A stretch of 64,000 nucleotides of DNA from Sistotremastrum niveocremeum HHB9708 (taxonomy: Eukaryota; Basidiomycota; Agaricomycetes; Sistotremastrales; Sistotremastraceae): assembly GCA_001630475.1 (NCBI GenBank), contig KV419422.1, forward strand, positions 186,001 through 250,000. Reading direction: 5' to 3'. Position numbers and translations under genes: made by a program. Below the pieces are notes generated by a model. That model was not told where the DNA came from. It searched no databases and saw only the letters and a program-made list of their open reading frames with translations. Shown one piece after another: positions 31,524 to 39,400 of this stretch. The first letter of the stretch is position 1. Every line of letters starts with the position of its first letter.

Positions 31524-31760
31524 CTCTGTGCAGACGAACCAGGGGCCAAAAGCCCCAGGGGAAGCCCCACCAGGCATGGCACAAAGTCACGCCCCCTGGG
31601 GTTTTCGTACATGGCGCGGTGCCCAAAAACCCCAGCCACAGGGGCCAGAACCTGGGGCTTTAAGCAACCGAAAATGTCCGGAAAGCCCCAGGGATATATT
31701 ATAAGATTAGGGTGCCGTCATAGCAGAAACCCCAGCCAGTGGGGTTTTGTATCATTGTAG
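31524..31760 (+). repeat. Left inverted end of the 1.6-kb element
   Basis: This is a GC-rich block with several CCCCAG/CTGGGG copies in alternating orientation. Its outermost 30 bases pair with 33124-33153. Confidence 0.6.
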
Positions 31761-32934
31761 CGGTAGCTTTAGATACATTACAGAATGACTTTGACCTTAT
31801 CCCACTGGGCATTTCCAACATGGACTGAAGGGCATCACAAATTATATTACGGTCATACTGCCCGTCTCACACCCCTCGATGAATCCTACTTCGTCGTCTG
31901 CATGTCGACCCTCTATGCTGATCCTACAACTTCGACTTCCTCGTCGCCGCATTTGAATCGATCCCACCCGAAGCATCCCGTCGCTTTCTTCGCCATTGCT
32001 GTCTCATCGTTGAAGATTCTCGTGGGATACTCTTCTCTGCGTCGAAAGCTCTCAGTATTGAACCGTATTTGTGCGCATATATGGTACTCACAGAGCCGAC
32101 CACCATCATGAAGAACTCCGCGATGCCATCTCCAACTAGATCTTCTCATAAGTCTTCTTACAATGTTTTGCATCAATTATTCGCTTACGTGAATACGAAG
32201 AGGAGACTCGCCTCAATAGCTCGAGCTTTCACTTTGCCATCTTCATATCCCATCTATTACCCAAGCCTCAACTCGTCCATATCGGCCACTTTCTATCTTC
32301 GCGTCATGTTCCGGTGCATATTCCGGTGCTGGGCGACAGCGGTCTTGCTGCTACTAGTCGAGTCGCGTCTCGATCGCTGTTCACGAAGACCTGATGCAAG
32401 AGCGAGAGTGAAGTGAGTCCTGAGAAGGAGGAACATCCTCACCTTCTAAGCCTCCAATGATAATAATCGCCTTCAAATGAGCAGTGAGCAGTCGCGCGGT
32501 AAGCATGGGTGATCAGATGCATACCGCGTATTCCTGCTTGTCGCCTCTGGCATCCGTGATTTGTCTGGTTTCCGTTTGGGCGGTTTGGGGTGCATCAACG
32601 TCGATTTGATGATGGACCTATGTGACGCGGCCTATACAGGGTTTAGACAGTGTGGGTGAGGTGCGCATCGTCGTCGAGAGGAAGGAGCACAGGGAATAAG
32701 CGCCGGCGGACTCTGGCGCTTCGAACGATCGCGTCTGGCTGAGCGGAGTTTAGACTTGGCCGCAACTAATCTCCAAGTGTATATTTCCAAAGGTGCGTGT
32801 ATTGAATTTGGGAATCCACCAGAGCCTAAGAAATTGGTGGTTCTGAGCCATGTTTTCGCACACAAACTACATGTAGGAAGTTAATACAGTGGTAGCACTA
32901 TGTACATAAACTATGAGACTATATAAAAATGACG

Positions 32935-33153
32935 GGACGGAAAACCCCAGCTGGAGTGCACATCCCCTGGGGCTTTTCAATTGAGTCCTCAGGCTCGCAA
33001 TCGCCATGGCAAAAAACCCCAGCCAGTGGGATGTCGATGTCCCGCCAAATTTGTTCCGGAAATGGCAGTGACATCGAAGCACCGGCCATTGGGGCTTCTA
33101 TCCCCGAAGCCCCAGTTTCGGTTGCTTTCGGCCCCCGGATCGTCCGCACAGTG
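32935..33153 (-). repeat. Right inverted end of the 1.6-kb element
   Basis: This block mirrors the left end. Read on the minus strand it starts CACTGTGCGGACGATCC and continues with GCAACCGAAA, which also occurs in the left end near 31663, and with repeated CTGGGGTTTT. Confidence 0.6.
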
Positions 33154-33467
33154 AAATGCTCACTCTCTTGCATACTTTGGATTTACTCCCATATATGTGC
33201 ATCAACTTGAATCGTAACGGATCGCTTATCCAGGGCAAGATGCTTGCCCTGAAGCCCACACCATTGCAATATGTGTCGTCATTAAAAATGAGCCCCCCCT
33301 TTGAGTTTTCATTACCCAGGAAACAAGGGTGGCAAAATGTTATTGTTGTAATTAATCTACATAGTAATGCATGTGTGGTAGTTGCGTCAGAGTTCGCATA
33401 GAAGATAGAGTTGAGAGCAAGAGGCGATAAACAAGATGTACCCTCATGAATCCGAAAAGCGTAAGAC
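33154..33467. other. Spacer between the repeat element and the RPB1 stop
   Basis: This contains the presumed RPB1 3' untranslated region on the minus strand. The AT-rich patch at 33285-33370 could hold polyadenylation signals. No gene is supported. Confidence 0.35.
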
Positions 33468-36400
33468 TTAAGTCCAAGACGGTGAACTGTCGTACGTGTG
33501 GCCGCGCTGCGTGCCGTTAGTCTGATTACGAGCCGGGCTCCTAGGAGACCATGATTGCGGTGAGGTTGGGCCTTGAAAGAGCTCAGTCGATAAGCTCAAC
33601 GATGAGGAATGAAACGAGACGTACTATATGCGGGGGATGCAGGAGCTGCGGTGGTCTAGTTAGTATCATATGGCAGTGAGAGTAAAGTTATAGCGACTAA
33701 CAGTATGAAGGAGCTGAAAGCGACAAAGTCAGTATCACTATGAACAGGGAAACATGAATACTTACATGCAGGAGAATAAGCAGGAGATGTAGGAGCTGCA
33801 GGAGTGTTAGACAGAATCACCGAACTGGGCGACAACTTACAATATTTAGGAGAAGGCGACGTGGGAGAAGTGGGTGAGTATTTGGGAGAGGTGGGAGAAT
33901 GTTGCGCTGGGGCTAGGATAATCATTAGCGGACTACAATGCGTACGGCGATTGCTCTTACAAGCTGTGAGTTGAATGAAGTGAAATGGATGATAAGGTTA
34001 GCAAAAAGAATCGGAAAGGAAAGAGAGGAAGACTTGCTCGGTGAATCTGCACTGGCATTAGTAATGTTACGTGAATGCAGAGGGGTAAAGACATACAGCG
34101 AGGAGAAGTGGGACTAAAGGCGGGACTTGTAGGCGAATAACGAGGGGACGCAGGACTGAAGGACGGTGACTGCGGACTGTACCGTGGCGAAGTCGGCGAA
34201 AATGAAGGGGACGTCGGAGAGTATCTGGGCGACGTAGGCGAGAAAGATGGCGAAGTGGGAGAGTACCTAGGCGAAGTAGGAGAGTATGCGGGGGAAGTGA
34301 GGTTCAACGCTGGGGACGTCGGAGAGTAGGTAGGAGAGGTGGCGCCACCACCCCTTCGGTCGTAGTATGGCGAAGTTGCATACGGCGAGGTACCGAACGG
34401 CGACGTCGCCCCGAAAGGTGACTGAGCCATCCGAGGAGAACTAGGAGAATAGCCAGAAGGTGAACTCGGGCTGTACCCAGGGCCGCCAGGCGACATGCCG
34501 CCGGCACCCATGGGACTTTGACCGAAGCCAAGATATGGGAAGCTTGCTGGATCTTCGGTGCCGTTCGAAGCCAAAGGCGAGAATGAAGCTTGTCCTCCTG
34601 CAAATCCACTTTCTTGCCAGACAGGGGACATACTATCGTACGGAGTCATGGCAACCTGTGCGGGAGTCATTGCCCCGTCCGCTTGCGCGGCCATGAGGTT
34701 GTGGGCCGGCAGACGATGATCCACAATAACATCCTTGAGCATATCCATGTCCAGAGACACTTCAAATGCACCTGTCCCCATCGGTGCCATCTGCCCGAAG
34801 AGCACATTCTCTGCAACACCGTGACAGTCATCTTTTTCTCCGACAGCGGCTGCTTCAAGAAGAATCTCCACAGTTTCTTCGAAGGAACATCTCATCAATG
34901 CACCAGTGTCAGCACGATTGATACCGTGTCGAGTGATGGACATCAAGGTGCCTCTGTGGGTCATCAAGTCACAGAGGAGAGCCAAGTGACGGTAATTCAC
35001 GTATGAACCATCGAATTCAATGACGTTCCTCAACTCCTTCATGATGGCGGCGCGAGCCGCTTCGATACCGAGGACGTTGAAAATCTCCACGCACGAATTG
35101 GAATAAGTGCGTTTGAAGTCAACGCCGTCGACTGTCATGACCGTTTTCAAGTTGATGCCATTGGTCTCCAAGACCCACTCCTTCTCTTCCTCGGTGCGGG
35201 CTTTGGAAACAAGACTACCATCGGGCCCAATATGCACTCTATCTTGCCGTTGCATGAAGACTCTTTCGACGCCCGCGACTCCTCGAAGGCTGACCGAGTT
35301 GAGCATGGTATTCTCCAGCTGTCGGAGGAACACATCTTCCTCGACAGTCCCCAGATCGTCCTCGTCTTTATCCATTCCGGCGAGGACACGGCAACGAATG
35401 ATCAGCTTCTCTGAGTTGTCCTCACTCCACATTACGAAGAGATCTTTGGAAAAGCTCTCTGCAATTCTGGATGCGACGTATGGCATGGTGAGATTGCGAT
35501 CAATCATCTTGTTGCGGTCGAGCTCTAAACGGAGCAACCACGGTGACTGTAGGTGCATCTTGGATTCGATCTCTTCATCGGGAACGGCAAAGAATTCGGC
35601 GACGAACTCTTGGTCTTCTTCGATGACAGTGGTACCGGGGTCCGGGTCATAATAAATCTCAACCGCAGCGGTGACCGTCCGCAAGCTCGTGTACGCCAAA
35701 GAGGTCTGGACCTGCTTGGCCAGAGTCTGCGTTCTGGCGATTTCGGGCTCAAGATAGACGCTCAGTGAAGGGGTTTTGATGTTGGTGGCGACATTGATGA
35801 TCTCTTTAAGACGAGGGACACCTAGAGTGACGTTCTTACTGGCGACACCAGCATAATGGAACGTGTTGAGCGTCATCTGGGTGGCAGGTTCACCGATGGA
35901 CTGGGCAGCAAGTGTGCCGCACATTTCACCGGGGTTCGCCACGGACTGATTGAACTTGGCTTCCACCTCTCCGAGAACCCACTCGAAAGCCTCCTTGTTC
36001 AGATGGTAATCCTCGAGAACACATCGAGCAGCGAAGGTCGACCTGATGAGCATACGGAACAACAGCGTCGCGTTGTCCTGAGCTTGTCGCGTGAGGTCAT
36101 CGCTACCTCGGACAACGATCAGCCGCTCTTGCAGCTCGCGGACAGAGTCGATAATATATGCAGGTTCAAGATCGCTGGGTTTCCGGCGATCAATGTGGAA
36201 AATCTGCTGCGCATTATGGATGATCCTTTTGACGTTGACTGGCAATCGGAAGGACATTCGAGAATCGGAGTTCGGAAAGATGAATCCTCTGAGGAGGCGA
36301 CGGTCAGCCTGCAATTGGGCAAACTCTTCGTCCAGCTTTGACTGAAGTTCCAATGAGCTATCGTCGAGACCGACTTGCAACACTCCTGGGAGGAAGCCAC

Positions 36401-39400
36401 CGGAAGGATCGGTGACATCAACACGATATTTGTGATCGAAGGATTTATCGTTTAGATGGAAAGTGGGAATGTTCTGGTTTTCGATATAAGCACCGTCCAT
36501 GCCATCCTCGCCGTAGATGAATTGGATGAGATCTCCTAACGAGTTCCTGACGGTGCCATCATAGCAAACCATGACGTCTTCCAACGCCTTGACCAGACGC
36601 CTCTGGATATAACCCGTCTCAGCAGTTTTCACTGCGGTATCGATCAGACCTTCACGACCGGCCATGGCGTGGAAAAAGAATTCCTGAGGCGTGAGACCTC
36701 TGAGGTAGGAGTTCTCAACAAAACCTCGAGCCTCGGGACTGAAATCGTCCTTGGTGAAATGGGGCAGCGTCCGGTGTTTGAAGCCGAATGGAATCCGCTT
36801 GCCTTCCACACTTTGCTGCCCCACACACACGGACATCTGAGAGATGTTGATGAACGACCCTTTGGATCCTGCGACGACCATCTGCTTGACATTGTTGTCG
36901 TTCTTCAAACTCTTCTCAGCGTGGCGACCGGTATCGTCACGGACCAAGTTGAGTACACGCTCAACTTTCTTCTCAAACGATTCACGGATCGTCATACCAG
37001 GATCCTGTGCAATCTTATCTTGGTAGGCGTCTTCGATGAGAGTGTTGACCTGGCTTTTTGCTGCAGAGATTTTCGTGGTAATGGTTTCCATCGTCGCTCT
37101 ATCAGCGATCGTATCACCGATGCCAATACTGAAACCGTTGTGGAAAAGCCAGTAGTTGACGACTTTTTGGAGACCCGTAAATAAGCCACGAGTGACCTCG
37201 GGACCCTTTTCTCGGAAAGTCACATCAATCAGGCCACCATGTGTAGCACCGACTGTCTTCTTGTCGACCACGCCATATAGAATTTCACCATTTTCAATCA
37301 TCATGCCGTCGTCGGCAAGGGGGTTTGCCTTCAGACTCTCGGAGGCTCTCTCGATGTTGATACCTCGAGGGATACACATGCTCAAAATCTGCTTCCCGGT
37401 CCAGAGAGGCTTAGGTTTGAGGATCGTTGGGATGGGCACAATGCCATCCCAATCGGGTAACCAAAGCAGGATATTCTGGATAGCGTTCCAATCCAGAAAT
37501 GTATCGCGGAGGGTGAATTTGCGGATGCCACACAGCGTGTCCTGTACGATACCCATGACCGGCTTGTTAGCTTGCGGCGAAATAATCTGCGCGAGACGCT
37601 ATAAGTTTCTTGACAACGAAACAACGATCAGTTCACGAACCTGGCGAGGGACCCAAGCGATTTGACTGAGCTCAGCTCGAGTTTCTTCGCTTTGAGGGAC
37701 ACTGCGGAATGATTAGGCTCGGCCGAAGGAGGGATCTACTGAATGTAGTGTACGTACTGCATGTTCATTTCGTCGCCGTCGAAATCGGCATTATAGGGAG
37801 GAGTGCTGCTTCGGGTTAGATGTAACCTGCGAAACATTATCAGACTACTTACACAGAGAGATTAAGTCGGAAAGCTAGAAAGAGCTCAGTGAATGCGCAA
37901 TACGAGAAGAGAGATGGACGAACTGGAGTATGGCATCAATTTGACTCGATGGCTCATCATACTCATTTTGTGCAGACTAGGCTGTCGGTTGAACAGCACG
38001 TAACTAAGACGCCATGAGTTAGTCTCATTCTGCCGAATGAACTCAGACACGTACTCTCCGTCTTTCAGATGTCTCTCGACTATCCAACCATACTGCAAGA
38101 ATGCATCGGTTCGCTTGTTGTACCGGAGATCTATGCGCTCTCCAGTATCACGAACAACGTATCGTGCGCCAGGGTATGCCGTAGGACCATTGCGGACCAA
38201 CTCTTGCAGATACTGAATGTTGTAGGGAGTCACTGATGGAGGGTCAACTATGGATCAAAAAGGAAACAGAGATCCGAACCTCTCTCAGGATAAGTCAAGT
38301 TCATCGCGATGCTTTTAGGAACGCCGACTTCATCGAGATCGATGTTCGGATCGCCGGTAATGACGGTTCGTGCCGAGAAGTCAACACGTTTACCCATCAA
38401 GTTTCCACGCAGACGTCCTTCCTTGCCTTTCAGGCGAGATCGGATTGCTTTGACAGGCCGACCTGATTTCTGAAGTGCTTGGGGGATTCCGGCGATGTCG
38501 TTGTCCATGTACGTAGCCACGTGAAACTAAGAACGTAACAGATCCATTAGCAGCTCATTCAGCCTCCCATATGAGACCAAATTTACCTGAAGCAACTGTT
38601 CGAACTCATTGATGACGTGCGCTGGCGCTCCCTCTTGTTCACAACGACGAACGTTCGCAGATGCTTTGATGATGTCAAAGAGTTTATATGTCAAATCGTC
38701 TTCACTTCGCATGACACCTCCATCGACGGCGATACTGGGACGGACGGCAGGGGGAGGAACAGGCATGACAGTCAAGATCATCCAATCCGGTCTCGCGTAC
38801 TGTTCAGACAAGCCCAGGATCAAGAGGTCTCCCTCGGATATCTTTTTCAGAACATTGTACACTTCCGAAGGAGTGAACAACCGTTTCTCCGGCTGATTGA
38901 TCTTTTCCTGCTCAAGAACTGAGAAGGAGCGTTAGTAAAATGACTGCTTCGACTGACCTCGTCATCGTCCTTCGATCGCTTGTAGTTCAAGAACAGTTTC
39001 AAGCCTTCCTTACGGATGGTTGGCTGTGTGTGACCGCAACCACCATGTCCCTTTTTGGGTTCTTCCATAGGATCGGCGTCCTCTTCTTTAGGATCATCCG
39101 GTTCGCATGTCATCTTAGTTTTGCAATGACTCCAAACAGCAGCCATTCGTGCTTTGGGATCGCGAATATGGCGTATTTTATCGGAGAAGTTGGGGTCGGA
39201 CTTATAAAGGTTCAAGTGACAAGGGTGGCAGAGTTAGAGAATATGCGGAGGTCAAATCGTCAGTAAATGTACTAGACAACAGGAAAGGACGGTTGGATGT
39301 AACGAAACACGATTAAAAACAGGTCAAGGCCAAGAGTACGCGACGAGTCATTGCCATCAACTTGTGAAAATCTCCGTCAGAGAAATTCGCAAGTGCAGGC

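Follow-up and report, generated by a model that had tools for sequence, protein, structure and literature searches.

In Phanerochaete chrysosporium, P450 genes are reported to contain exons as small as 6 bp, encoding 2–10 residues, together with frequent small introns of 45–55 bp, and in the available text of that study the authors propose that such microexons promote alternative splicing (PMC1184071). A read-supported exon of 1 nt is described, in the accessible part of another report, for Fusarium CYP621A, with 20 orthologous genes (PMC12940212). The locus analyzed here resembles the Phanerochaete P450 genes in that it belongs to an agaricomycete and combines tiny exons with frequent small introns, and differs from what the accessible text describes in that those genes form an enzyme family whose shortest exon measures 6 bp, whereas here the exons lie in a polymerase tail and the shortest one is predicted to be 3 nt long (PMC1184071). 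Among the literature matches listed, none described microexons in RPB1 in its title or at the start of its abstract.

The window comprises the whole stretch of 64,000 nucleotides analyzed, which runs from 186001 to 250000 on its contig (G000:C29), and positions of the locus are given in its coordinates. On the minus strand, a 1,213-codon open reading frame (ORF) at 33957-37598 matched Schizosaccharomyces pombe Rpb1 with E=0 over 1,163 ORF residues and Rpb1 in PDB, also with E=0. Pfam Rpb1 domains 3–7 scored above their cut-offs, in line with membership of the catalytic-domain families, and the C-terminal repeat PF05001 was detected at 6.2e-22 in the spliced linker plus tail, in line with heptad-repeat membership. 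Judged by these matches, the locus is the 3′ end of the gene for the largest subunit of RNA polymerase II (RPB1), in an intron-dense genome. The full model, whose start codon was our pick from the ORF list, has 19 exons that join into 5,283 in-frame nt with one stop, encodes 1,760 aa and contains 18 matches to the pattern [YF]SP[TSAQ]SPx, six of which lie past the first tail intron. Eleven introns are located in the 5′ part and seven in the last 629 nt, with an exon of 3,490 nt between them. No relatives of the RPB1 segment were found in the bacterial/archaeal or viral contig collections scanned. The genome (34.7 Mb) also gave at least 151 matches to DUF6535 and at least 25 to STE3 receptors, the latter on two contigs; both families are typical of agaricomycetes.

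The exons and introns of the tail, in the order of transcription, are the following:

34097..37586, minus strand: RPB1 exon 12, 3,490 nt, covering a large portion of the catalytic part plus full tail heptads 1–12; ends in phase 1.
34047..34096, minus strand: tail intron 1, 50 nt, GT-AG (GTATGT...TACTAAT...GTGCAG), donor 7.6 and acceptor 6.6 bits; contains a TACTAAT branch site.
34038..34046, minus strand: predicted hidden microexon of 9 nt (ATTCACCGA), coding for the greater part of Tyr, for Ser and Pro, and for the first Thr base.
33964..34037, minus strand: tail intron 2, 74 nt, GC-AG (GCAAGT...CTAAC...CACAG), donor 2.0 and acceptor 7.1 bits.
33961..33963, minus strand: predicted hidden microexon of 3 nt (CTT), finishing Thr4 and beginning Ser5.
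33913..33960, minus strand: tail intron 3, 48 nt, GT-AG (GTAAGA...CTAAT...CCTAG); a multiple of three and stop-free in frame.
33841..33912, minus strand: tail exon of 72 nt encoding 24 residues, placed by spliced alignment.
33796..33840, minus strand: tail intron 4, 45 nt; a multiple of three and stop-free in frame.
33766..33795, minus strand: tail exon of 30 nt encoding 10 residues, placed by spliced alignment.
33714..33765, minus strand: tail intron 5, 52 nt.
33702..33713, minus strand: tail microexon of 12 nt encoding SPSY, placed by spliced alignment.
33646..33701, minus strand: tail intron 6, 56 nt.
33625..33645, minus strand: tail microexon of 21 nt encoding SPASPAY, the sole tail exon of one heptad.
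33572..33624, minus strand: tail intron 7, 53 nt, with the weak acceptor TTCAAG.
33468..33571, minus strand: last exon, 104 nt, with 34 residues followed by the stop TAA.

In this model, coding for the last 83 residues of RPB1 is spread over six small exons (9, 3, 72, 30, 12 and 21 nt) and the final 104-nt exon. All seven tail introns are in phase 1 and 45–74 nt long, and each of the six internal exons is divisible by three in length and has the same phase at both ends, which is the length property of a cassette exon; the predicted exons of 9, 3, 12 and 21 nt are within the microexon size range (about 27 nt or less). The five exons of 72, 30, 12, 21 and 104 nt that the initial annotation had listed were all recovered, on the minus strand at 33912-33468, and the first four are frame-neutral as it had stated, being multiples of three all entered in phase 1. 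Its term "heptad-sized" fits the 21-nt exon but not the others. With regard to its claim that the introns fall mostly in Ser codons, the codons split are, in order, Tyr, Thr, Ser, Ser, Ser, Ser and Ser, so that it holds for five of the seven and not for Tyr before the 9-nt exon or Thr before the 3-nt exon.

The gap at 33913-34096 had been suspected of hiding one further exon, and hidden coding sequence is indeed predicted there, but in the form of two exons. Read as a single 184-nt intron, the gap yields the protein SPTSPR-SPAQH, which is four residues short of one heptad, and adding both hidden exons rebuilds that heptad: the predicted spliced sequence is TCGCT-ATTCACCGA-CTT-CCCCAGCG, with ATTCACCGACTT placed between exon 12 and the 72-nt exon. 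The model was obtained by spliced alignment with a heptad profile built from upstream-exon heptads only and with splice matrices from this genome, exon choice being left free. At all three intron costs tried, the alignment returned exactly the eight-exon tail model, and it added no extra exons in the other four tail introns. Together, the two hidden exons gained 26.1 bits over the single 184-nt intron. In controls that covered the region only as far as the end of the 72-nt exon, no control sequence reached this gain: 3,000 dinucleotide shuffles peaked at 12.7 bits, 3,000 genomic inserts at 10.5 and another 100,000 shuffles at 22.7. Smaller spurious gains were frequent, some gain being observed in 342 of the 3,000 shuffles and 189 of the 3,000 inserts, and a 3-nt exon was picked among them in 31 shuffles and 28 inserts. 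Blocking the 3-nt exon alone cost 13.3 bits, a gain matched by 9 of 20,000 shuffles. As a sequence model, the exon pair is thus well supported, with the 3-nt exon by itself less secure, and most likely the 184-nt gap holds two exons, at 34046-34038 and 33963-33961.

Splice signals were compared with 78 reference introns taken from protein-guided spliced alignments in this genome. An attempt to harvest introns from 264 kb independently of homology gave 13 ORF pairs and 8 introns, which were too few and too noisy, and protein-guided alignment was used in its place. The splice matrices were derived from 63 of the 78, after omission of 11 obtained when alpha-like tubulins were aligned with a beta-tubulin guide and of four longer than 70 nt; length and donor statistics refer to all 78, artefacts included. 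Reference introns had a median length of 53 nt and a 95th percentile of 89 nt (n=78), and the tail introns (45–74 nt) are close to this usual size. Two of the tail signals are weak: at 2.0 bits, the GC donor of intron 2 is outscored by each of the 63 reference donors, and at 0.8 bits, the AAG acceptor of intron 7 is outscored by each of the 63 reference acceptors. The donor was GT in 78 of 78 reference introns and GC in none, a count made with an aligner that penalized GC. A branch-like motif of the CTRAB type is present in every tail intron, 11–34 nt from its 3′ end.

Two further features were observed in and near the gene. In the 5′ half of RPB1 there is an apparent intron of 467 nt (window 39667-39201), very long for this genome, which may hold more exons or another feature; a 21-nt exon that had appeared there, flanked by apparent introns of 307 and 139 nt, proved to be a guide artefact, and the corrected guide gave the one 467-nt intron. 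Downstream, a repeat element some 1.63 kb long (window 31524-33154) ends 314 nt from the RPB1 stop codon. Inspected by eye, the element has ends that repeat each other in inverted orientation, and further inverted pairs lie inside it. There are five near full-length copies in the genome, itself included, and since two of the others are 99% identical, the element has probably been active recently.

Tiny exons were also predicted elsewhere in the genome by protein-guided alignment: one of 6 nt (TTGCCG) in the actin gene (L027, 874-879) and one of 10 nt in a second actin-like gene. Furthermore, a divergent beta-tubulin-like gene (L032, G000:C19:262300-265300, minus strand) appears to contain 24 introns, and three of its predicted exons measure 9, 12 and 12 nt. 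Across six genes with 60 internal exons, 14 measured 30 nt or less and 6 measured 12 nt or less, the latter count including a doubtful 2-nt exon that may be an alignment error; the alpha-like tubulin run was left out of these exon counts and of the phase counts given below. On these predictions, the RPB1 tail is a dense microexon cluster in a genome tolerant of predicted microexons, and because tiny exons are present in other genes of the same genome, the tail exons are probably always included.

Phase 1 was found in 7 of 7 tail introns against 20 of 66 elsewhere, with a chance of about 2e-4, or 3e-3 for any one phase, if introns are independent; introns within one repeat are not, and the phase excess is therefore a lead only. 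Tandem duplication of an exon-plus-intron unit, a claim about origin that is compatible with constitutive splicing of the array, would account for the shared phase. Three exons (30, 12 and 21 nt) begin alike, with CTCCTNCAT, and the alignment of introns 4 and 5 beats 99% of background intron pairs. Nevertheless, intron similarity within the tail was not significant when tested against random seven-intron sets, with p=0.11 for the best triple (introns 4, 5 and 6) and p=0.08 for all 21 pairs, and intron duplication was rejected on this ground; we regard an origin of the array by tandem duplication as unlikely.

The reading that we favor, with a probability of about 0.72, is that of a constitutively spliced microexon array. 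That short introns are recognized as units across the intron (intron definition) is an established idea, and the usual short size of the tail introns suggests recognition of this kind. Most likely, each short intron would be read as a unit, and the introns flanking each exon would be removed one by one, so that even the 3- and 9-nt exons would be retained; the normal mRNA would then carry every tail exon and specify a single invariant tail with 18 full heptads. We infer that removal of all tail introns is constitutive, and that the shared phase stems from introns gained or retained in a Ser-codon-rich repeat and not from selection for skipping. The seven phase-1 introns are left partly unexplained by this reading. 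It is also challenged by the weak GC donor, a type absent from the 78 reference introns, by the weak AAG acceptor, and by the apparent 467-nt intron, whose length makes an intron of 184 nt conceivable. Such a single intron, exon-free inside, as in the model of the initial annotation, has acceptable end signals, keeps the frame and would dispense with the weak GC donor, and the gene does have its apparent 467-nt intron elsewhere. It is nonetheless improbable: it scores 26 bits worse, with no shuffle in 100,000 reproducing the difference, it leaves the tail without four residues of a heptad, and its 184 nt exceed the 95th percentile (89 nt) of the reference introns.

Constitutive splicing also has to be weighed against regulated events, beginning with the proposal that tail length varies because symmetric microexons are left out under certain conditions. 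The six internal exons would permit this by length and phase, and the weak GC donor and AAG acceptor could be taken in the same sense, as could the regulated microexon reported, as far as the accessible text goes, in Trichoderma Xlr2 (PMC11121469). However, among ten exon skips that we modelled, nine damaged the heptads and only removal of the 30- and 12-nt exons as a pair (42 nt, exactly two heptads) kept them clean. Single skipping of the 9-, 3-, 72-, 30- or 12-nt exon breaks heptad spacing, and without the 21-nt exon T meets GC, so that YCPTSPQ results, with Cys at the Ser2 site, since the Ser codon finished by the next exon is split A|GC. The short introns, in suggesting intron definition, likewise speak against skipping. 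In the available text on Schizophyllum commune, skipping accounts by transcripts for 1% of coding events and retention, the commonest type, for 43%, whereas splice junctions analyzed in the same study give 1,527 skipping events and 7,851 alternative sites within coding regions (PMC5034255). The 1,527 junction events indicate that skipping is not negligible in mushrooms, and on account of this count we favor constitutive splicing slightly less and skipping slightly more. On balance, variable tail length through skipping finds no support in the sequence, and skipping as a regulated event seems rather unlikely. If anything in the tail varies, retention is likelier than skipping. If intron 3 or 4 (33960-33913 and 33840-33796, respectively) were retained, the protein would gain 16 or 15 foreign residues without loss of frame; retained intron 5, 6 or 7 would bring an early stop and truncate the tail, and retained intron 1 or 2 would shift the frame. 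For Coprinopsis cinerea, the portion of the source available gives retention and alternative 5′/3′ sites as the major types (PMC10532568), and in Cryptococcus, according to the accessible text, an inhibitor of CDK7, which acts on phosphorylation of the polymerase tail, increased intron retention (PMC12691695). Set against this, introns that are multiples of three and stop-free number 2 of 7 in the tail and 5 of 66 in the reference, which is no clear excess, and a regulated role for retention appears quite improbable. Less probable still is that the RPB1 tail forms a built-in splicing sensor, with feedback between polymerase tail length and splicing capacity. The idea starts from the role of the tail in recruiting the splicing machinery and from the seven short introns that interrupt its own end, where a GC donor and an AAG acceptor form weak points; if it were true, lower splicing efficiency would give a shorter or altered polymerase tail, or loss of the mRNA.

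Taken as a whole, the interpretation of the initial annotation is partly supported: its observation of small tail exons is confirmed at the level of gene prediction and extended by two predicted exons, and what emerges from the model is a striking gene structure, not a shown length switch. If the constitutive array is right, an essential core protein of a mushroom relies on the exact joining of exons of 3 and 9 nt, and the RPB1 tail would offer a clean natural test of how the spliceosome handles consecutive tiny exons. Automatic annotation may well omit such exons, with the consequence that residues would be missing in comparative studies of polymerase tails.

Like the canonical RPB1 C-terminal domain of yeast and fission yeast, the tail described here carries YSPTSPx heptads, PF05001 and Rpb1 domains; unlike the yeast tail, its end is split by seven predicted introns, and its heptads show more variation than the consensus in yeast. 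The accessible text on the Phanerochaete P450 genes describes no microexon array inside a heptad repeat of the kind predicted for RPB1 (PMC1184071). With Xlr2 of Trichoderma virens, this locus shares a microexon in a fungal gene acting in transcription; there, according to the part of the report available, inclusion is glucose-dependent, whereas the RPB1 tail exons would probably be included constitutively (PMC11121469). As in Fusarium CYP621A, on the available text of that work, an ultra-small exon is predicted here inside an intron more than twice the normal length, where it would rebuild a conserved motif, and the same search logic applies; in that gene, however, 1 nt restores the frame, whereas in the RPB1 tail the predicted 9 + 3 nt restore a heptad and leave the frame unchanged (PMC12940212).
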